From the IMG/VR virus record IMGVR_UViG_3300031630_000002, positions 1 through 64,000 of that record: a stretch of 64,000 nucleotides of DNA. One strand, 5' to 3'. Below the pieces are notes generated by a model, which saw nothing but the letters and a program-made list of their open reading frames with translations, was not told the origin of the DNA and ran no database searches. The stretch is from a virus. Both the position numbers and the translations under genes were made by a program. Shown piece after piece: positions 23,566 through 63,963 of the stretch (the stretch's first letter is position 1; every line of letters starts with the position of its first letter).

Positions 23566-24240
23566 ATGAACAAAGAATTTTTAAAACATCGTACATGGAA
23601 GATGCAGACTAAATTATGTTATGGTTTTGATTCAGTTGCTTTTATTTCTACAACTAAATCATCTGATCGTAGCACTGCGGCATCAGTGTATGGTAGATGT
23701 CAAGCATTGAAATCTGTACTTAATAAAACTATGAAAAACGTCAAAGTAGTTAACCAGCACAGTTATCATGAAGGTAGTAGTTTGCGTGTATATTTCAATG
23801 TATCTGATAAAGAATCATGTGATGCATTATTAAACATCACTTCTAAGAATACGCATAACTTTGAATTGCTTGAAGTAAAGACTCCTAAAAATCAAGCTCA
23901 TTTAGATATGATTAAAAATAAAGAAATTACACAGGTAATTAGAAAAAAAATTTACTATAACAAGTATGTATATAGTGTGAAGATTATTTTGGATGATGCA
24001 GTTTCACGTATTACCGAAAGAATGGATCTGGTTTGGGATATGCAATCATGGATTGATAATGCAATACCAGATAATTCATCAAGTGTGTGGTGGGATGAAA
24101 TTCAATTATTCACTAATGATGTAACTGCGTTGATGATGTTTAGGTTGACATTTGATGTTAAGTCGTGTACTATTAAAGAAGCAATTCTTCTTGAAAACGA
24201 AGACAGCGATCCAGAACATGAAATGGGAATTTTGATTTGA
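23566..24240 (+). CDS. Hypothetical protein in the uvsW unit
   Basis: A 224-residue protein (MNKEFLKHRTWKMQTKLCYG) with a Lys/Arg-rich N-terminal half and an acidic C-terminus (LENEDSDPEHEMGILI). It starts 8 bp after the previous stop, with an AGGAGTAGG SD. The end overlaps the next gene by 4 bases (TTGA). No family recognised. Confidence 0.8.
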   Translation: MNKEFLKHRTWKMQTKLCYGFDSVAFISTTKSSDRSTAASVYGRCQALKSVLNKTMKNVKVVNQHSYHEGSSLRVYFNVSDKESCDALLNITSKNTHNFELLEVKTPKNQAHLDMIKNKEITQVIRKKIYYNKYVYSVKIILDDAVSRITERMDLVWDMQSWIDNAIPDNSSSVWWDEIQLFTNDVTALMMFRLTFDVKSCTIKEAILLENEDSDPEHEMGILI

Positions 24241-45959: not shown

Positions 45960-47399
45960 ATGAAAGAATATTATGCGGATTTATATGCGAATAATCCAAC
46001 TCACACTTTACGAAATGACGATGCTATTGCATTATCTGCTAACGGCAATGAAATCACATATGCTGAATTTAATAAGAGGATGAAAGAAGTTGCGTCTAAT
46101 CTAGCAGATGCTGGTATCACCGATAAACATCGCGTCTTGGTAATCGCAGAGGAATCAGATATGATATCCTCTGTGGTACTAGCATGGGCTGCGATGTATC
46201 TGGATGCTAGTCCGGCTAATACAACAAGTTTACAGAGTAATAGGGAAATTGATATAAAGCGACGATCAGCTAATTGTAGTGCTGTGTTATGGGTCGATGG
46301 TACTATCGATATATGCGCAGATCTGAAAAATATTACTAAATCACATACAGGAGAGAAATCTGTATATTTTAGTAGTGGTACCACTAGAACAGACGGCGAT
46401 CTGTATTCAATGGTACCCGGCAGATATACATACCAGACTGACTACGAACGAGGTGCCGCAATAATAGATGAAATTATTTTAGCAAATAATATGCTTGGCG
46501 ACGAGTATACACAACTTGTAACAGTATGTAGTTCATCATGGGACGTAGCATGGACGCCTCAGATAGTAACCAAATGCTTATTAACTGGAGGATCCTTTCA
46601 TTGGGTACAGACTGATAAAGAAGTTCCTGCCGCACATGCGAAATACAAGGCAAATATGATGTCTGTCTATCCGAGTCAAGCTCATCGACTATGCGAATTT
46701 GAATATGATTCTCCAATAGATTACATTGATATCTCTGGTGGTGTAGTATCGAGCGATTTAGTTGAAAGTATACAACGAACAATGAAACCCCATACAATAT
46801 GCGACTGGTTCGGGACTGTAGGTACAGGCGTTATGCTTTGTAATGTAATCAAAGAGGGTGCTACTCGTGGTGATTGGTTTACTCCATTCACGGACACAAA
46901 CTTGAAAATGAGATTAACAGACAGCGGTGTAATTTGGTCGTGTCGAGGAACTGAATGGCATTCTGATAATGATGTATTTGAAGAAAAAGATGGAAAATAT
47001 AGATATACCGGACGCACGAGTGAAGAATTTATATCGTTTGGAGGAGGGAAGATCTATCCTTGGGAAGTTGAAACTTACATACGAGAGTTATCTATAGCAG
47101 AAGCGACCACTACTGATCAGGTATACGTATTTCCCATGAACGGATTGAACGACTACGACAGACATGGATTGGTATATAGCGGCGATCTAAGCATCGATAT
47201 GGTAGGAGATATGGTCACACAACTAACCAAATACAAGCGTCCAGAGCAAATATTCCAAGTGTCGCATGAATTTTGGGGACTGTATCTTAAAGTCGGAAGA
47301 AATAGTATGGCAAGTCGTTTAAAAGCACACCCTGATCATATATTGCATACAATTCATACGCACATGCTCGTCAACAAGATAATTAATAATGGCGACTGA
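45960..47399 (+). CDS. ANL-superfamily adenylating enzyme
   Basis: A 479-residue acyl-CoA-synthetase-like protein. N-terminal EITYAEFNKRMKEVASNLAD and WAAMYLDASPANTTS; P-loop-like SSGTT (138-142) in VYFSSGTTRTDGD; DWFGTVGTG (282-290) at the A5 position; YTGRTSEEFISFGG then KIYPWEVE (349-371) as the A8 hinge; C-terminal GLYLKVGRNSM for the A10 lysine region. Such enzymes activate a carboxylate with ATP. The substrate-pocket sequences are divergent, and the usual PK after the P-loop is missing. The partner may be the next gene. No carrier protein is visible. A hairpin straddles the stop. Confidence 0.8.
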   Translation: MKEYYADLYANNPTHTLRNDDAIALSANGNEITYAEFNKRMKEVASNLADAGITDKHRVLVIAEESDMISSVVLAWAAMYLDASPANTTSLQSNREIDIKRRSANCSAVLWVDGTIDICADLKNITKSHTGEKSVYFSSGTTRTDGDLYSMVPGRYTYQTDYERGAAIIDEIILANNMLGDEYTQLVTVCSSSWDVAWTPQIVTKCLLTGGSFHWVQTDKEVPAAHAKYKANMMSVYPSQAHRLCEFEYDSPIDYIDISGGVVSSDLVESIQRTMKPHTICDWFGTVGTGVMLCNVIKEGATRGDWFTPFTDTNLKMRLTDSGVIWSCRGTEWHSDNDVFEEKDGKYRYTGRTSEEFISFGGGKIYPWEVETYIRELSIAEATTTDQVYVFPMNGLNDYDRHGLVYSGDLSIDMVGDMVTQLTKYKRPEQIFQVSHEFWGLYLKVGRNSMASRLKAHPDHILHTIHTHMLVNKIINNGD

Positions 47400-49381: not shown

Positions 49382-50122
49382 ATGAAATTAAACGAAGTAC
49401 TGAATACATTACCTGATACGGACAAAGTCGTTATTACACACAGTGGTGGACTTGATAGTTCAACTGCTGTTATTATTGCTGCACACAAATACGGCGCTGA
49501 AAATGTATTCTCAGTTGGTTATGATTACGGACAAAAGCAGCGAGTAGAATTAGATCGCGCAGCACAGTTATGTGAGAAACTTGGTGTTCATCGTCAATTG
49601 TTTGATCTTTCTATTCTAGGTGAAATTGCAAAACCTATGAGTGCAAACATTGCGGGCACTGATGTAGTAATGCCGACTATTCAAGATGTATTAGGTGAAC
49701 CACAGCCTTCGACATATGTGCCATATCGTAATATGATCTTATTTTCATTGACTGCTGCATATGCAGAAGCGATGGGTGCAGAATATGTATTTGCTGGTAT
49801 TCAAGCAACTGATGCATATGGTTATTGGGATACTACGCCTAGTTTTGCAGACGCATTGAATAATGTAATGAGTATGAATCGTAATTGTCCTGTACAATTG
49901 GTAGCACCATTTAATACATTGACCAAAGATGAAGAGATTGCATTATTAGAGGAACTTGACTTAGTACATTTATACGAGTATACATTGACATGTTACGATC
50001 CTGATATTGATGGTAAGTCATGTGGTGTATGTCCTAGTTGTGCAGAACGTATCAAAGCATTCATGGATAGGTCTATTGCAGATCCTATTGAATACCAAAT
50101 ACAGATTCCTTGGAATGTGTAG
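49382..50122 (+). CDS. queC: 7-cyano-7-deazaguanine synthase QueC
   Basis: A 246-residue QueC. PP-loop HSGGLDSST near residue 20, DYGQKQRVELDRAAQLCEKL, the signature TYVPYRNMILFSLTAAYAEA and GIQATDAYGYWDTTPSFADA, then a zinc-type Cys set (LTCYD, CGVCPSC). QueC uses ATP and ammonia to turn CDG into the nitrile preQ0, precursor of queuosine and of 7-deazaguanine DNA bases. It overlaps a class II amidotransferase gene by 8 bp. queD, queE, folE and a DpdA-type transglycosylase are not in the window. Confidence 0.93.
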   Translation: MKLNEVLNTLPDTDKVVITHSGGLDSSTAVIIAAHKYGAENVFSVGYDYGQKQRVELDRAAQLCEKLGVHRQLFDLSILGEIAKPMSANIAGTDVVMPTIQDVLGEPQPSTYVPYRNMILFSLTAAYAEAMGAEYVFAGIQATDAYGYWDTTPSFADALNNVMSMNRNCPVQLVAPFNTLTKDEEIALLEELDLVHLYEYTLTCYDPDIDGKSCGVCPSCAERIKAFMDRSIADPIEYQIQIPWNV

Positions 50123-51499: not shown

Positions 51500-52717
51500 A
51501 TGAAGTATCGTAATATAGAATCAAAAGGTGTACCAATAAAAGCGTGGATAGACGGCGTTAATTTGGAAGATCAAGCAAAAGAGCAATTGCAAAACATAGC
51601 ACAATTGCCGATCATACACAGTCACATAGCAGTGATGCCAGACGTTCACTTAGGTAAAGGAGCAACGATAGGTAGTGTTATACCTACGTTAAAAGCAATC
51701 ATACCTAATGCGGTTGGAGTTGATCTAGGTTGTGGAATGATGGCTGCAATGACAACATTGTATGCTAAAGATTTACCAGATAATTTACTCGCTGTTCGTA
51801 CTGCTATAGAAAAAGCAGTACCACACGGACGTACAAATAACGGCAAAGCAGTTAATGACAAAGGTGCTTGGAATGATATACCAAAACTTGCATCTGATTT
51901 ATGGAAAATGCACCTTGAGCAACAGTTCAATAAAATGGTTGATAAGTATCCAGAGATAGGTCAGTGTAACCACATTGTACACCTTGGAACATTGGGAACT
52001 GGTAATCATTTTATAGAGTTATGTCTTGATGAAAATCAGCAAGTATGGATAATGTTACACTCTGGTTCACGTGGTGTTGGTAATCGTATTGCGTCAACTT
52101 TCATAGCGAAAGCGAAGCAAGATATGATAAATCAGCAGACACATTTGCCAGATAAAGAGTTGGCATATTTGCAAGAAGGATCGCCATACTTTGACGACTA
52201 TGTAGAAGGTGTTACATGGGCGCAAGAGTTTGCCAAGATCAATCGTCAAGTGATGATGCAACTAACCATAGAAGCATTGGAATCAGTATTGCCACCATTT
52301 AAGGCTAACGTGTTGGCGGTTAATTGTCACCACAACTACGTGAGTAAAGAGCATCACTTCGGTGAAGATGTTTACTTGACACGTAAAGGTGCGGTTTCTG
52401 CTAAGGCTGGTGAGTTGGGTATAATCCCAGGATCAATGGGTGCTAAAAGTTTCATTGTGCGTGGTTTAGGTAATCCTGAATCATTTTCATCATGTAGTCA
52501 CGGCGCAGGTCGTACAATGTCACGTACTGCGGCACGTAAGCAGTTCACCGTAGATGACCACATCAAGGCGACAGCAGGAGTAGAGTGTCGTAAAGACGAA
52601 GATGTGATTGATGAAACCCCAATGGCATATAAAGACATCGAAGCGGTAATGAAAGCACAGGATGATTTAGTTGAAGTTGTTCACACATTAAAGCAAGTTG
52701 TTTGCGTAAAGGGTTGA
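51500..52717 (+). CDS. rtcB: RNA ligase RtcB
   Basis: A 405-residue RtcB. Conserved MPDVHLGKGATIGSVI, NAVGVDLGCGMMA (metal Cys), HLGTLGTGNHFIEL, LHSGSRGVGN, NCHHNYVSKEHHFGE (metal His), and HGAGR with the histidine that becomes guanylylated. RtcB joins 2',3'-cyclic phosphate or 3'-phosphate RNA to 5'-OH ends, so it can mend tRNA or other RNA cut by host anticodon nucleases. Its TGA lies within the next promoter's -35 box. It sits in the accessory island under the 50799 promoter, with AGAGAGAAG as SD. Confidence 0.95.
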   Translation: MKYRNIESKGVPIKAWIDGVNLEDQAKEQLQNIAQLPIIHSHIAVMPDVHLGKGATIGSVIPTLKAIIPNAVGVDLGCGMMAAMTTLYAKDLPDNLLAVRTAIEKAVPHGRTNNGKAVNDKGAWNDIPKLASDLWKMHLEQQFNKMVDKYPEIGQCNHIVHLGTLGTGNHFIELCLDENQQVWIMLHSGSRGVGNRIASTFIAKAKQDMINQQTHLPDKELAYLQEGSPYFDDYVEGVTWAQEFAKINRQVMMQLTIEALESVLPPFKANVLAVNCHHNYVSKEHHFGEDVYLTRKGAVSAKAGELGIIPGSMGAKSFIVRGLGNPESFSSCSHGAGRTMSRTAARKQFTVDDHIKATAGVECRKDEDVIDETPMAYKDIEAVMKAQDDLVEVVHTLKQVVCVKG

Positions 52718-58348: not shown

Positions 58349-58569
58349 TGGCTAAGGAAGAAACAATAAGAGTAACGGGCACTGTAACCGAGTGCCTACC
58401 AAATGCCCAATTTAGAGTTAAGTTAGAAGCGAATCAACATATTCTTCTAGCACACTTGAGTGGTAAGATGCGAAAAATGAATATCAATGTACTTCTAGAT
58501 GATAACGTTGAAGTAGAAATATCACCATATGATTTGACAAAATGTAGAATCGTATATAGGAACAAATAA
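58348..58569 (+). CDS. infA: Translation initiation factor IF-1
   Basis: A 73-residue IF-1 (E. coli IF-1 has 72). It keeps the characteristic pattern [45 protein letters not shown] and [13 protein letters not shown], covering the S1/OB fold and the conserved HxSGKMR and SPYDLxKxRI motifs. IF-1 blocks the ribosomal A site and tunes start-codon choice with IF-2 and IF-3. It overlaps both neighbours by 1 bp, so it is embedded in the phage operon rather than being a stray host gene. Codon use matches the neighbours by eye. Confidence 0.93.
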
Positions 58570-59039
58570 TGTTTTCACGTATTAAAATATATCTAATAGC
58601 AGCAGTGATCTTCGGCGCAGTTGGTTATGGTGCATGGCAATATTATAAATATACCCAAGCACAAATTCAAGCATATGCAGTCAGTGCAGCACAATCGGAA
58701 CAAGCACGACAATCCACTGATACGGCATTGAAAGCAGTACAAGTTGATTTGATAAATGTTAAAGCACAGTTTTCGGTTGTGACTACTAAATTTCAACAAG
58801 CGAACCTACGAGTTAAAGATCTACAGGCTAAATTAAGTAGACATGAACTAGGTGCATTAGCAGAAGCAAAGCCTGGATTAGTAGAGAAGATTGTTGACAA
58901 TGGCACTAAAGATGTGCTAAGATGTTTTGAGATAGTAAGTGGTTCACCACTAACAAAGGAAGAATTAAATGCAGTTAAGAAAAGTCAAACGAATAGCAGT
59001 TGTCCTGACATTGCTAATCCCAACTATATTCCTAAGTAG
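58569..59039 (+). CDS. Rz: Inner-membrane spanin (Rz-like)
   Basis: A 156-residue protein with one N-terminal membrane helix (IKIYLIAAVIFGAVGYGAW) followed by a periplasmic coiled coil (YAVSAAQSEQARQSTDTALK, FQQANLRVKDLQAKLSRHEL) and a Cys-containing C-terminal part. The plan is that of Rz-type i-spanins, which fuse inner and outer membranes at the last step of lysis. The o-spanin gene overlaps its 3' end in another frame, typical of Rz/Rz1. Confidence 0.85.
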   Translation: MFSRIKIYLIAAVIFGAVGYGAWQYYKYTQAQIQAYAVSAAQSEQARQSTDTALKAVQVDLINVKAQFSVVTTKFQQANLRVKDLQAKLSRHELGALAEAKPGLVEKIVDNGTKDVLRCFEIVSGSPLTKEELNAVKKSQTNSSCPDIANPNYIPK

Positions 59040-59436
59040 TTGTTCATCTGTACCAAAGACAGTTACATACCAATCAGCACCCATTGACAAGCCTAATTTA
59101 ATATTACCAGATGCTACTGTGTTGGAATTGCGTGATGTAGATTTCGTGATAGTGACGCTTGCTAATATGGATGAAGTGATGTTAGAGTTACAAAAAGTAA
59201 ACAGTAATATTGCCTTATTTGCATTAACTGATATTGGGTACGAAAATTTAAGTCTGAATAATGCCGATATATTAAAATTAGTAGCAGAGCAAAAATCAAT
59301 CATAGCAGCATACAAATCGTACTACGAGGGTATAAATACTAATGTCGATGATTACAACGATAATCGCGATGTAACTATTCCAGTTCCCGTTGAAGCAGAT
59401 ATTGCTGACAAAGTGCTAAAGATATTTAATGACTAG
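58969..59436 (+). CDS. Rz1: Outer-membrane spanin lipoprotein (Rz1-like)
   Basis: A 155-residue lipoprotein. The signal sequence (KRIAVVLTLLIPTIFLSSC) ends in the lipobox L22-S-S-C25, so C25 is lipidated. The mature protein is long for an o-spanin and has helical segments. It begins inside the Rz-like gene (71-bp overlap, different frame). The two together indicate a Gram-negative host. Endolysin and holin were not seen nearby. Confidence 0.85.
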   Translation: MQLRKVKRIAVVLTLLIPTIFLSSCSSVPKTVTYQSAPIDKPNLILPDATVLELRDVDFVIVTLANMDEVMLELQKVNSNIALFALTDIGYENLSLNNADILKLVAEQKSIIAAYKSYYEGINTNVDDYNDNRDVTIPVPVEADIADKVLKIFND

Positions 59437-59496
59437 TAAAAAACGCAGTTTATATATAGTGATGTATAACTCATGTAGAAACCTAGTTAAATACAG

Positions 59497-59582
59497 TTAC
59501 ACTAGAAGTGTGATTGTTCATTGTTGAGCAATGAGATATATGGCAACGTTGACGAAATAGTTTATAGGAACACACTATTTCG
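59497..59582 (+). ncRNA. Structured leader of three hairpins upstream of dnaJ
   Basis: Three consecutive hairpins in the 161-bp gap. 59497-59513: ACACT/AGTGT stem extended by T-G and T-A, loop AGA. 59518-59534: TCATTG/CAATGA, loop TTGAG. 59553-59582: CGAAATAGT/ACTATTTCG with a 12-base loop holding AGGAA. The ATG at 59598 follows 15 bases later. GTTAAATAC (59486) is a possible weak late promoter. A regulatory leader is the simplest reading; no known riboswitch is recognised. Confidence 0.5.
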
Positions 59583-59597
59583 ACAATAAGAAACACT

Positions 59598-60293
59598 ATG
59601 AAACAAACAAACAGCAATCCTTGGGATATACTAAACATCGCGACAACTTCGTCCCAGGAAGAGATAAAACACGCATTTAAGCAACTTGCAATGAAGCATC
59701 ATCCAGATCGTGGTGGTAAAGCGGTTGATTTCAATCGTATTGCGGTAGCATACGAGCAATTACGAAAGAGTACTATTGTACCTATTATTGTAACTCCACA
59801 TACACATTTGGTAAATGTAAAATTAACAATCAAGCAGCAGATAGAAGGTGTAGATGATTACATTGAGACAGATACTGGCGAGATATTAAAAGTAACAATA
59901 CCAGCAGGATCTAAGTTAGATGATAAGTATAAAGTGAACACACCTATTGACAAATATATTGTTAATATCAAAGAATTATCACATAAAGCATTGACAAGAC
60001 ACGGTTTATCGCTTATAATGAATATCACAATTGATATTGTAGATGCAATGCGAGGCAGTGTAATTCCAGTAGTAGGTCCGTGTGATGAACATTTAGAAAT
60101 AGAAATTCCAGCGGGAACGTCAGATGGTAAAGTTATTGTTGTTCCACAAAAGGGATTGATGAATAAACTAACAAAGAAGCGTGCAGCTTTGCACATTATT
60201 GTAAATACAAAAATCCCAACATTAGATACTGATACTAGTATCGATCAATTTATATTAAGGTTAAGAGAATGTCAGAAATTGAAAACATTGTAG
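59598..60293 (+). CDS. DnaJ/CbpA-like J-domain co-chaperone
   Basis: A 231-residue J-protein. J domain at residues 7-60 (NPWDILNIATTSSQEEIKHA, with HPD 35-37 in MKHHPDRGGKAVDFNRIA). No Cys-rich zinc domain. Two C-terminal substrate-binding-type domains follow (VNVKLTIKQQIEGVDDYIET and TIDIVDAMRGSVIPV with EIPAGTSDGKVIVVPQKGL), the CbpA layout. J-proteins stimulate DnaK. It overlaps clpA by 25 bp, so the two are co-translated. Host DnaK is the presumed partner. Confidence 0.88.
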   Translation: MKQTNSNPWDILNIATTSSQEEIKHAFKQLAMKHHPDRGGKAVDFNRIAVAYEQLRKSTIVPIIVTPHTHLVNVKLTIKQQIEGVDDYIETDTGEILKVTIPAGSKLDDKYKVNTPIDKYIVNIKELSHKALTRHGLSLIMNITIDIVDAMRGSVIPVVGPCDEHLEIEIPAGTSDGKVIVVPQKGLMNKLTKKRAALHIIVNTKIPTLDTDTSIDQFILRLRECQKLKTL

Positions 60294-62545
60294 TTCGCGC
60301 AATTGATCTAGCGAAAAGTCACAAGCATGAATATGTGACGCTAGAGCATTTGGCTTTGGTCATTTTAGATGACACAGCAGTACGTATTATGTGTTATGAA
60401 ATACAAGCAGATTGTGAGAGTATCCAAATAGCGATTGAAGATTATCTAGCAGCAGAATGCGATGAATTGGTTATGTCATCAGATGAAGAGGTCACACCAC
60501 GTAAGACACAGATGTTAGAGCGAGTATTCAATCGTGCTATGACACAGGCTGTATTTTACGGAAAGAAATCAATCAACAATGTTGATTTACTGTTGAGCAT
60601 CTTGTCAGAAGAGCAATCAGTAACTGCACACTACGCATACGAGTGTGGGTTAGATAAGCATTCATTGTCAGCATGGTTACATGACGTGAATATGGCAGTT
60701 GGCGATGCGTTGTCCGATGGCACGGGCGCCCGCACCACTAGTGCACCATCACGTCAAGCAGCAGCACCAACTGCGCTTGAGCAATTCACTGTTAATATGA
60801 ATGAAGAATCGAGTAATTATGATGATGTAGTTGGTCGTCGTGATGAGTTGCGAGATCTTGTACAAACATTAGCACGTAAGAAGAAATCCAATGCAGTATT
60901 GGTAGGTGGTAGTGGTGTTGGTAAAACTGCTATTGTAGAAGGATTAGCAAAACTTATCGTAGAAGATGAAGTACCAGATGTTATTAAAGGCAAAACAGTA
61001 TTGATGCTCGATATGGCAAAATTGGTTGCAGGTACTAAGTATCGTGGTGATTTTGAAGAACGCATGAAATTACTTGTAGAAGAATTAGAAAAGCGCGACG
61101 ATGTCATATTGTTCATTGATGAAATTCATATGGTGATCGGAGCAGGATCTACGAGTGGCGGGTCAGGTGGAATGGACGCAGGTAATTTACTAAAACCATC
61201 ATTATCTAGCGGCAAATTAAAAGTAATTGGTGCAACCACAGATCAAGAATATCGTAAATTATTTGAAAAAGAAGCAGCATTGGCACGACGATTCACTAAG
61301 ATTAATATTGAAGAACCATCTGTAGAAGAAGCAAAAGTGATTCTGCGTAATGCAGCAATGTCATATGAAATTCATTATGGGTTTGAGATTGAACCATCTG
61401 CGTGTGATTTGGCAGTTGATTTAAGTGCAGAGTATGTATTTAATAAGAAATTACCAGATAAGGCATTTGATGTAATTGATCGCGCATGTGCATTCAATAA
61501 GATTCAACCTAGCGACGATCAAGTTACATTGATAACTGACGAAGCAATTCGTGCAGAATTATCTCGCTATACTGGTATCCCAGCAGAGCATTTGGGAACT
61601 AAAGCAGAAGAACAAACAAGTAATAAACATACTCAAGTAGAGACATTCCTACGAAACAATGTATTTGGACAAGAAGAAGCGATCAATCGTGTAATCAATT
61701 CAATTACCATTAGTTTAGCAGGATTAAAAGAACCAAACAAGCCTATCGCAAGTTATCTATTCACTGGTCCCACTGGTGTTGGTAAAACTGAAACAGCGAA
61801 GCGATTATCAGAATCGATGGATATGAAACTTGTACGATTTGATATGAGTGAGTATCAAGAAGCACATTCAGTATCTAAGTTAATCGGTTCACCTCCTGGT
61901 TATGTCGGACATGGTGACGGCAAAGCGGGAGATGGTTTGTTGATCACTGCATTGGAAGATTCACCAAATTGCGTATTGTTGTTAGACGAAGTAGAAAAAG
62001 CACATCCAGATATTATGTCAGTATTATTAGCATTATTGGATGATGGTGTAATCACGTCTAGTACAGGTAAAAAGGTATCGGGTAAGAATTCAATCATCAT
62101 TATGACATCTAACTTAGGTGCACGTGAAGGTTCAAAGAAAGCGATTGGATTTGGTGATCAAGCATATAACGCGTTAGCAGTTAATGAAGCAATCAACAAA
62201 TTCTTTGCACCAGAATTCCGAAATCGCTTAGATGGTATTGTACAATTTAATGCATTAAAATTAAAATATATGCGCAGTATCGTACTAAAGTTCTTGGGAC
62301 AATTAGAAGGTTATATCGCAGCACGTGGTGTTGAGATTGAATGGGATGAAAGTGTATTAGTATTCCTTGAAACAGAAGGTTATGATCCAGCGATGGGTGC
62401 ACGACCGCTGTCACGACTAATTAACGAGCGTATTAAATTACCATTAGCAAAGCATATTATGAATGACACCATCTCTGAAAAACTGATGATCAGTTATACA
62501 GACGGTGAAGTGTTAATAACAAATAAAGAACTGGAGGCAGTGTGA
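60269..62545 (+). CDS. clpA: ClpA-like AAA+ unfoldase
   Basis: A 758-residue two-ring Clp ATPase, the same length as E. coli ClpA. N-domain (HEYVTLEHLALVILDD) at 1-140; D1 with Walker A GGSGVGKT (213-220) and LFIDEIH (281-287); D2 with GPTGVGKT (500-507) and LLLDEVEKAHP (570-580), PEFRNRLD at about 648-655. KKAIGFGD (624-630) supplies an IGF tripeptide like the ClpP-binding loop of ClpX (ClpA has IGL). Hence it may dock to host ClpP, as no clpP is visible. Overlaps dnaJ-like by 25 bp and the peptidase by 4 bp. Confidence 0.93.
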   Translation: MSEIENIVVRAIDLAKSHKHEYVTLEHLALVILDDTAVRIMCYEIQADCESIQIAIEDYLAAECDELVMSSDEEVTPRKTQMLERVFNRAMTQAVFYGKKSINNVDLLLSILSEEQSVTAHYAYECGLDKHSLSAWLHDVNMAVGDALSDGTGARTTSAPSRQAAAPTALEQFTVNMNEESSNYDDVVGRRDELRDLVQTLARKKKSNAVLVGGSGVGKTAIVEGLAKLIVEDEVPDVIKGKTVLMLDMAKLVAGTKYRGDFEERMKLLVEELEKRDDVILFIDEIHMVIGAGSTSGGSGGMDAGNLLKPSLSSGKLKVIGATTDQEYRKLFEKEAALARRFTKINIEEPSVEEAKVILRNAAMSYEIHYGFEIEPSACDLAVDLSAEYVFNKKLPDKAFDVIDRACAFNKIQPSDDQVTLITDEAIRAELSRYTGIPAEHLGTKAEEQTSNKHTQVETFLRNNVFGQEEAINRVINSITISLAGLKEPNKPIASYLFTGPTGVGKTETAKRLSESMDMKLVRFDMSEYQEAHSVSKLIGSPPGYVGHGDGKAGDGLLITALEDSPNCVLLLDEVEKAHPDIMSVLLALLDDGVITSSTGKKVSGKNSIIIMTSNLGAREGSKKAIGFGDQAYNALAVNEAINKFFAPEFRNRLDGIVQFNALKLKYMRSIVLKFLGQLEGYIAARGVEIEWDESVLVFLETEGYDPAMGARPLSRLINERIKLPLAKHIMNDTISEKLMISYTDGEVLITNKELEAV

Positions 62546-63963
62546 GCGAATATGAAAATAATTCAGCAATCGTAGTTGAATATAAATCAAAGTATTACAA
62601 AGTATTAGACAAAGCAACTAAGGGACAGTTACAAGCAGCATGGGATATGAACAATTCCAGTAAAGATGATGATATGATTGAAGTATCATATCCATCTGGA
62701 TTGTCTGTACACGCAGTGCTTATTGTAAAAACAACAGCAGCGACAGATGACGAATTCCGTAATCTTGGTGGTAAATGTTTTTCCAAATATAATAAAAAGC
62801 GCAGTCATGTTTATTTTGAGTTTAATGATAAGACCTCTGCGTCTATCATCGAAGGTGCACGTCTTGCTGCATACTCATTCAGCAAGTACAAGACAGATTA
62901 CGCAAGTGATGCGTTTACATATATTCACGGTACAGATTCAATAAAAACCATTGAAGAAAGTGTATTCTTAGCACGTGACCTAGTTACTGAGCCGGGTAAC
63001 GAACTGTATCCAGAAGAGTACGCGGATCGTATCAACCAAATGTTAACACCGTTAGGTGTAACGGTAAAGGTCATGCATGAGAAGTTTCTACGTAAACTAG
63101 GATTTGATCTACTATTGAGTGTTGGTGAAGGTTCTGATCGTGACAGTTATGTTGTTGTGATGGAATACATGAATGCTGGTACAGATGCAGCACCACTTGC
63201 TCTAGTAGGAAAAGGTGTTACATTTGATTCTGGTGGTATCTCACTAAAGCCTGGAAAGGGTATGGGTGATATGAAGACTGACATGGGTGGTTCAGCAGCA
63301 GTGGTTGGTGCTATGCATGCAATTGCTTCACAGAATGTAAAAGCCAATGTAGTAGGAATCGTAGGACTTGTAGAAAACATGCCGTCTGGTGGTGCAACCC
63401 GTCCAGGAGATGTGATTGGGTCATTGAATGGTCAAACAGTTGAGAACTTGAATACAGATGCAGAAGGTCGCTTAGTACTTGCTGATATTCTAACATATGT
63501 ACAAAATGAATACAAGCCATCAGAGATCATTGATTTGGCAACATTAACTGGTGCTATTTTGGTAACACTGGGTCACGAAGCAGCAGGCTTGTTTAGTAAT
63601 TCTACTGGTTTCGCTAGTCATATTGCATCAGTTGGTTCAGATGCGGGAGAGAATTATTTCCGTATGCCGATGGGCAAAGTATGGAATAAGATGATTGATT
63701 CGCCTATTGCAGATATGCAGAACATTGGTGGTCCGTATGGTGGTTCTACCACAGCAGCAGAGTTCTTATATCGTTTCGTTGATAGTGATACTCCATGGGC
63801 GCATTTGGATATTGCTGGAATGGCATGGACTGATAGTCCTAAAGATACAACACCAAAAGGTGCAGTAGGATTTGGCGTGCGTACCCTGTACGATATCGCT
63901 TGTGGGTTAACCCACGACCAACCAACGACTCACTGGGCGATTGATCCAGATATGCAATACTAA
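62542..63963 (+). CDS. pepA: M17 leucyl aminopeptidase (PepA-like)
   Basis: A 473-residue peptidase starting at GTG (62542, ATGA-type overlap GTGA with clpA). Metal and catalytic motifs: GKGVTFDSGGISLKP (223-237; K224, D229), DMKTDMGGSAAV (D247), and the signature NTDAEGR (304-310; D306, E308, R310). N-terminal DNA- or regulatory-type domain of PepA is shortened. It trims peptides from the N-terminus and would finish off Clp products. The operon order J-protein, unfoldase, aminopeptidase is notable. Confidence 0.95.
   Translation: MSEYENNSAIVVEYKSKYYKVLDKATKGQLQAAWDMNNSSKDDDMIEVSYPSGLSVHAVLIVKTTAATDDEFRNLGGKCFSKYNKKRSHVYFEFNDKTSASIIEGARLAAYSFSKYKTDYASDAFTYIHGTDSIKTIEESVFLARDLVTEPGNELYPEEYADRINQMLTPLGVTVKVMHEKFLRKLGFDLLLSVGEGSDRDSYVVVMEYMNAGTDAAPLALVGKGVTFDSGGISLKPGKGMGDMKTDMGGSAAVVGAMHAIASQNVKANVVGIVGLVENMPSGGATRPGDVIGSLNGQTVENLNTDAEGRLVLADILTYVQNEYKPSEIIDLATLTGAILVTLGHEAAGLFSNSTGFASHIASVGSDAGENYFRMPMGKVWNKMIDSPIADMQNIGGPYGGSTTAAEFLYRFVDSDTPWAHLDIAGMAWTDSPKDTTPKGAVGFGVRTLYDIACGLTHDQPTTHWAIDPDMQY

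Follow-up and report, generated by a model that had tools for sequence, protein, structure and literature searches.

The first characterised phage J-domain protein, Rki of phage RB43, is made early, binds DnaK through its J-domain and stabilises sigma32; according to the available excerpts of its description, its promoter carries TTGACA and the protein is not a generic cochaperone (PMC3486835). The paper on Agrobacterium phage Atu_ph07, in its available parts, lists ClpA and DnaJ (gp292/gp293) with other Clp proteins and does not call the pair a unit (PMC6102473). Excerpts of PMC12619734 and PMC7824862 name ClpA among the conserved genes of moraphages and mention DnaJ, and in the latter Iyer et al. 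propose assembly or translocase roles for phage ClpA; as far as these excerpts go, gene order, deformylase, the M17 aminopeptidase and the unnamed fourth family described below are not discussed for moraphages and jumbo phages. We found neither a J-deformylase-ClpA nor a J-ClpA-M17 cassette described in the retrieved portions of the open-licence PMC literature. The parts are known, and J and ClpA have already been listed as neighbours in Atu_ph07, while the architecture and the M17 variant look undescribed. The initial annotation of this DNA had taken the whole three-gene module to be undescribed, which seems to hold for the M17 variant and not for the J-ClpA neighbours.

The window analysed here is a stretch of 64,000 nucleotides, bases 1-64000 of a virus record that is itself a fragment (full record 83,336 bases). 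At 59598-63963 it carries three overlapping, intact genes on the + strand, encoding a J-domain protein (J), a two-ring ClpA-type unfoldase and an M17 aminopeptidase (Table 1). The overlaps taken from the ORF coordinates, 25 bp for J/ClpA and 4 bp for ClpA/M17, are the values given in the initial annotation, which had also recognised a full-length two-ring ClpA-like unfoldase with both Walker A/B pairs and the NTDAEGR motif of M17; both pairs and the motif were found. The window belongs to a large aquatic phage, and its genes for tail sheath, sheath stabiliser, terminase and ribonucleotide reductase point to a contractile-tailed phage with T4-type genes. The cassette is flanked by virion-structure genes, and no tRNA was found in the window. 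By eye, two small overlapping genes at 58569-59436 look like inner- and outer-membrane spanins. The window also holds a relative of RtcB-type RNA ligase (51500-52717), QueC (49382-50122) and a stretch with weak acyl-CoA synthetase-like matches (45960-47399, E about 1e-8). An unusual metabolic gene of the acyl-CoA dehydrogenase family (L002:15648-16856) adjoins a DNA polymerase gene, the polymerase being assigned by eye.

Table 1. Features of the J-ClpA-M17 locus and of a related protein gene in the window.
Feature	Position	Strand	Description
J-domain protein	59598-60293	+	231 aa; J-domain, two C-terminal substrate-binding domains, C-terminal helix
HPD motif, J residues 35-37	59700-59708	+	Invariant in 59-row J alignment
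Perfect sigma-70 consensus TTGACA-N17-TATAAT inside J gene	59991-60019	+	Candidate promoter for clpA-M17
ClpA-type two-ring AAA+ unfoldase	60269-62545	+	758 aa
IGF tripeptide, ClpA residues 626-628	62144-62152	+	Aligns with the IGL loop of E. coli ClpA
M17 leucyl aminopeptidase	62542-63963	+	473 aa; GTG start, GGAGG before it
NTDAEGR metal/active-site motif, M17 residues 304-310	63451-63471	+	
224-aa protein, weak match to the unnamed post-ClpA family	23566-24240	+	36 kb off

The operon is real and looks functional. All three genes are identical in L003, a locus from a separate IMG/VR record of 117,470 bases; over 9,459 compared bases, it differs from the window by 1 mismatch. They are intact and diverged in L005, an 88%-identical relative (dS 0.31-0.59; dN/dS 0.127 for J, 0.069 for ClpA and 0.091 for M17). 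Because the genes recur unchanged in a separate record and stay intact at low dN/dS in L005, an assembly accident is ruled out; judged by codon comparison, the cassette is under purifying selection.

The J-protein matched the Pfam families DnaJ (45.5 bits) and DnaJ_C (52 bits). Its AlphaFold model (mean pLDDT 91.2) contains J-domain helices I-III, two C-terminal domains and a C-terminal helix, and the best PDB fold match is Thermus thermophilus DnaJ (4j80_A, E 8.2e-18). The HPD motif lies where the initial annotation had placed it, but the CbpA type proposed there does not stand: of the class B (CbpA-like) features, the protein has the HPD J-domain and two C-terminal substrate domains without a zinc finger, and lacks the G/F-rich linker as well as helix IV, so that it was rejected as a standard CbpA. 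A two-repeat zinc finger is absent from all 69 J relatives that have HPD. Their lengths run from 226 to 301 aa; the G/F linker is present in the longer ones (255-301 aa) and missing from the four shortest (L003, L005, L008 and L009, 226-231 aa). L152 and L153 can be aligned at 40% with almost the full length of the short form. A J-protein devoid of G/F suggests altered regulation. The likeness to Rki lies in the phage J-domain and the early-type TTGACA promoter, the difference in the CbpA/DnaJ-type C-terminal half of the window protein.

The unfoldase contains the Pfam families AAA, AAA_2, AAA_lid_9, ClpB_D2-small and Clp_N, with Walker A and Walker B in each of the two AAA+ rings, and aligns to phrog_4871 over residues 3-754 (763 bits) and to its best PDB match, E. 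coli ClpA, over residues 5-733 (E 4.8e-166). A ClpB-type middle domain is missing, the 758 aa aligning without an insert to ClpA while ClpB models match two separate stretches. In NCBIfam, ClpA is the best-scoring family at 761.3 bits, under the naming cut-off of 993, and the protein is filed as ClpA-type rather than as a ClpA equivalog. It thus shares with the ClpA of E. coli ClpAP the full-length alignment, both Walker pairs, the arginine and sensor-2 motifs and the IGL/IGF loop, and differs in this score; in addition, neither ClpS nor canonical ClpP was seen in the records of the window's clade. The IGF tripeptide had been thought to resemble a ClpP-docking loop, and this reading is supported by its alignment with the E. 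coli loop and by its conservation: among 90 aligned ClpA (82 viral loci and 8 cultured phages), 86 have a docking-type loop, namely IGF in 80, LGF in 3 and VGF in 3. Four of the five cultured phages that lack J account for the exceptions (IGM, IGV twice and LGM); the fifth reads VGF.

Assignment of the third protein to the M17 family is certain from its sequence matches (Peptidase_M17, 390.9 bits; NF002077, 520.8 bits with a cut-off of 471). K224, D229, K236, D247, D306, E308 and R310, which we take to be the M17 metal-binding and catalytic positions, are all invariant in three phage M17. The catalytic domain and motif are those of leucyl aminopeptidase PepA, whereas the phage M17 form a clade of their own: in the tree, six of them group with support 100/100 beside Kordiimonadaceae/Emcibacteraceae (91/90), suggesting a single capture from an alphaproteobacterium. 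For its cellular rows, this tree uses 40 loci picked up by scanning with two short patterns; the composition of four rows, three of which are phage, is unusual. Among 11 'phage' records with M17, several seem to contain host DNA rather than phage DNA and were excluded.

Conservation of the neighbourhood was assessed in 83 contigs, the 80 best from at least 599 matching stretches plus L003, L005 and L006, a sample that leans to near relatives. J was found upstream of ClpA in 77 of the 83 (6 of the 77 are cut by the contig end), three lack J and three are cut. Between J and ClpA there was a peptide deformylase in 39 contigs, a deformylase with further sequence in 1, another gene in 2 and nothing in 35; after grouping at 95% ClpA identity (64 groups), the corresponding numbers were 30, 1, 1 and 28, with two groups lacking J and two cut. 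The gene following ClpA belonged to an unnamed family in 68 contigs, to M17 in 4 and to something else in 10, and one contig was too short. Among 51 records searched over their whole length (the window's own and 50 others), J occurred in 48, deformylase in 23, the ClpP family in 11, M17 in 6, ClpS in 5 and HSP70 in 2. PhoH lies upstream in 50 of 62 loci, and the J-ClpA pair is kept in 7 loci where this usual upstream PhoH was not found. J is also present in three of the 8 cultured ClpA phages (Phosso, Atu_ph07 and PA5oct), adjoining ClpA or one gene away, and absent from the other five. Atu_ph07 and Pseudomonas phage PA5oct have, like the window, J directly upstream of ClpA on the same strand, and both also encode ClpP, ClpX and HSP20, but they differ from the window in having no M17 beside the pair. 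The J query retrieved 3 records from the phage collection but not PA5oct, Atu_ph07 or Phosso, in each of which DnaJ is annotated, so J counts there are low.

From this distribution, the conserved unit is J-ClpA, found in many large phages, and the window cassette is a clade-specific variant of it. M17 directly follows ClpA only in the window and L003-L006, which form one clade with two variants 6% apart in M17. In three cousin records (G053, G051 and G017), J-ClpA is followed by the unnamed family, and M17 lies about 7, 43 and 42 kb from ClpA, respectively; it is missing from 45 of the 51 ClpA records. Conversely, ClpA was not found in two more M17 records, G052 (110 kb) and G054 (57 kb). J-ClpA-M17 as one conserved three-gene module was rejected, the three being together in one clade and M17 elsewhere unlinked or absent. 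The dedicated module of the initial annotation is therefore not upheld, and the conserved association expected there is seen for J with ClpA, whereas M17 lies next to the pair in this clade only. M17 is a local addition, a late joiner to the J-ClpA unit that fills the post-ClpA slot only in the window's clade. In G017, a gene beside M17 (L092:3181-3873) has repeated NGMYGKTHSEE-type motifs and by eye resembles a homing endonuclease, which might explain M17 mobility.

The unnamed family that usually follows ClpA evolves fast. Its profiles were built from 33 of its own members, and hhalign links the three subgroups to one another (98.7% and 95.2%). The member directly after ClpA at L068:10210-10860 gave a confident model (pLDDT 94.9), for which no match to a PDB fold reached E 0.001. 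Searches by sequence returned no PHROG match (5 members), two stray weak Pfam matches among 26 members, only two matches to PDB sequences (E 0.15 and 0.41) and 8 uncharacterised phage proteins in BFVD. The window itself has a weak member away from the cassette (A4 profile, E 1.9e-7, 27.4 bits). The family is a candidate new Clp adaptor. One could picture an early, exchangeable cassette of J, an optional deformylase, ClpA and the unnamed protein as ClpA adaptor or specificity factor, in which M17 took the last slot and turned a targeting cassette into a protein-to-amino-acid recycler working with phage ClpP; we consider this scheme unlikely as a whole.

Regarding expression, the window contains 15 perfect TTGACA/TATAAT pairs (2350-60019), all on the + strand, compared with 0.1 in shuffles. 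Thirteen of them fall in no ORF, and one falls within J, 250 bp upstream of ClpA; several have the same spacer, AAGTAAGGCTCATTGTTA. The site inside J is also perfect in L005 and matches at 11 of 12 positions in L009. A sigma-70 consensus site with at most one mismatch lies within -200..+40 of the start in 28 of the 60 distinct J genes, but in only 25 of 802 other ORFs (Fisher 1.1e-21, nominal since the loci are related) and in 6 of 1380 shuffles; perfect sites are found there in 14/60 J genes and 5/802 other ORFs. No match was found in the same interval before the window's own J, as before 32 of the 60 J genes. The T4 late promoter TATAAATA gave no signal (9 found, 8.6 expected). Between the preceding gene and J (59493-59580), three hairpins are predicted (z -2.69; 1 of 200 shuffles as stable), with no Rfam match; by eye, the third is not obviously kept in L005.

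ClpP was not found in the window's 83,336-base record, nor in G000-G003, and the fragments of the window's clade (G000-G004, 48-117 kb) yielded no canonical ClpP, ClpX or HSP20. In the sister record G004, which has the same cassette, the contig end, about 52 kb past the cassette, carries a fragment of a divergent ClpP-family gene in which the triad positions are retained. G001 runs for 44.6 kb past M17, and the last stretch that it shares by homology with G004 lies about 14 kb short of the ClpP-like gene. The G004 fragment was rejected as canonical ClpP, since it aligns as the divergent type (51% to that of G052, 33% to canonical). G051 and G053, two cousins with J, ClpA and M17, have canonical ClpP with ClpX and HSP20 close by; in L155 (G053:17500-26500), the three genes lie within about 6 kb. 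No ClpX above the cut-off and no HSP20 were found in the remaining ten fragment records. Each of the 8 long cultured ClpA phages gave a match to the ClpP family; Phosso, Atu_ph07 and PA5oct have J, ClpX and HSP20 as well, and the other five have none of these three. Since the records are fragments and cousins encode ClpP, the missing clpP says nothing on host ClpP use, and the earlier argument that a phage without clpP borrows the host protease fails. Use of host ClpP by the window's phage is possible.

We propose that the cassette may act as an early phage-borne Hsp40-ClpAP quality-control and degradation unit, with M17 finishing the peptides, and give the full mechanism an even chance. The J-protein would recruit host DnaK and/or bind clients and hand them to the neighbouring ClpA ring. 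ClpA would unfold the clients and, through its putative docking loop, feed ClpP, most likely a phage ClpP encoded elsewhere in the genome, otherwise that of the host; the operon probably works with phage ClpP. M17, which in the window's clade would be translated from the same message, would trim the released peptides to amino acids. We infer both the production of the cassette early in infection and the identity of its clients. This degradation unit is favoured because the J-ClpA pair and the docking loop are conserved, ClpP is co-encoded, promoters precede J and dN/dS is 0.07-0.13. Against it stand the scarcity of HSP70 (2/51) and ClpS (5/51), the virion-gene surroundings, the window J without a promoter match, the five cultured ClpA phages without J, the clade fragments without canonical ClpP, ClpX or HSP20, and M17 being unlinked in cousins. 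Moreover, much of the J-ClpA adjacency may be inherited synteny, given PhoH upstream.

If descent in synteny alone kept J and ClpA together and M17 stood there by chance, no joint function would be needed. The frequent upstream PhoH and the position of M17 elsewhere in three cousin records agree with this, but the pair persists in the 7 loci without upstream PhoH and tolerates deformylase insertion, and promoters are enriched before J, which makes mere neighbourhood highly improbable. E. coli PepA binds DNA in plasmid recombination, and the phage M17 could likewise be a DNA-binding factor rather than a peptidase; the predicted pI of 4.9 (though 7.71 in another phage M17, L106), the weakly matching N-terminal domain and the seven retained active-site positions leave this scarcely credible.

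Two further readings keep J and ClpA working together. They could be virion-assembly chaperones that fold or remodel large structural proteins without proteolysis, M17 being incidental. Such a role would fit the flanking virion-structure genes, the position of ClpA beside tail-sheath-completion or virion genes in 121Q, RaK2, XaC1, CBB and Vibrio 2.275, and the suggestions of Iyer et al. in the excerpts of PMC7824862; it is nevertheless doubtful in view of the docking-type loop kept in 86/90 ClpA, the ClpP-family protein co-encoded by 8/8 cultured phages, the early-type promoters before J and PA5oct, whose neighbouring products carry an ESI-MS/MS virion note while DnaJ and ClpA do not. In host takeover or counter-defence, J would capture host DnaK, and ClpA with ClpP would remove host regulators or defence proteins, recycling being a by-product. 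Rki, an early DnaK binder stabilising sigma32 and sharing the TTGACA box according to the excerpts of PMC3486835, offers a precedent, and the G/F-less J with its suggested altered regulation is consistent with it; unlike Rki, however, the J-protein retains its two C-terminal substrate domains and resembles CbpA/DnaJ in fold, and we identified neither a target nor an adaptor, so that this role has a low likelihood.

If the degradation unit is real, these phages would do more than use host proteases: early in infection they would supply their own proteins for delivering clients, unfolding and degrading them and finishing the peptides. One could then test whether large phages use host protein as a nutrient source, shield their own proteins or eliminate selected host factors.
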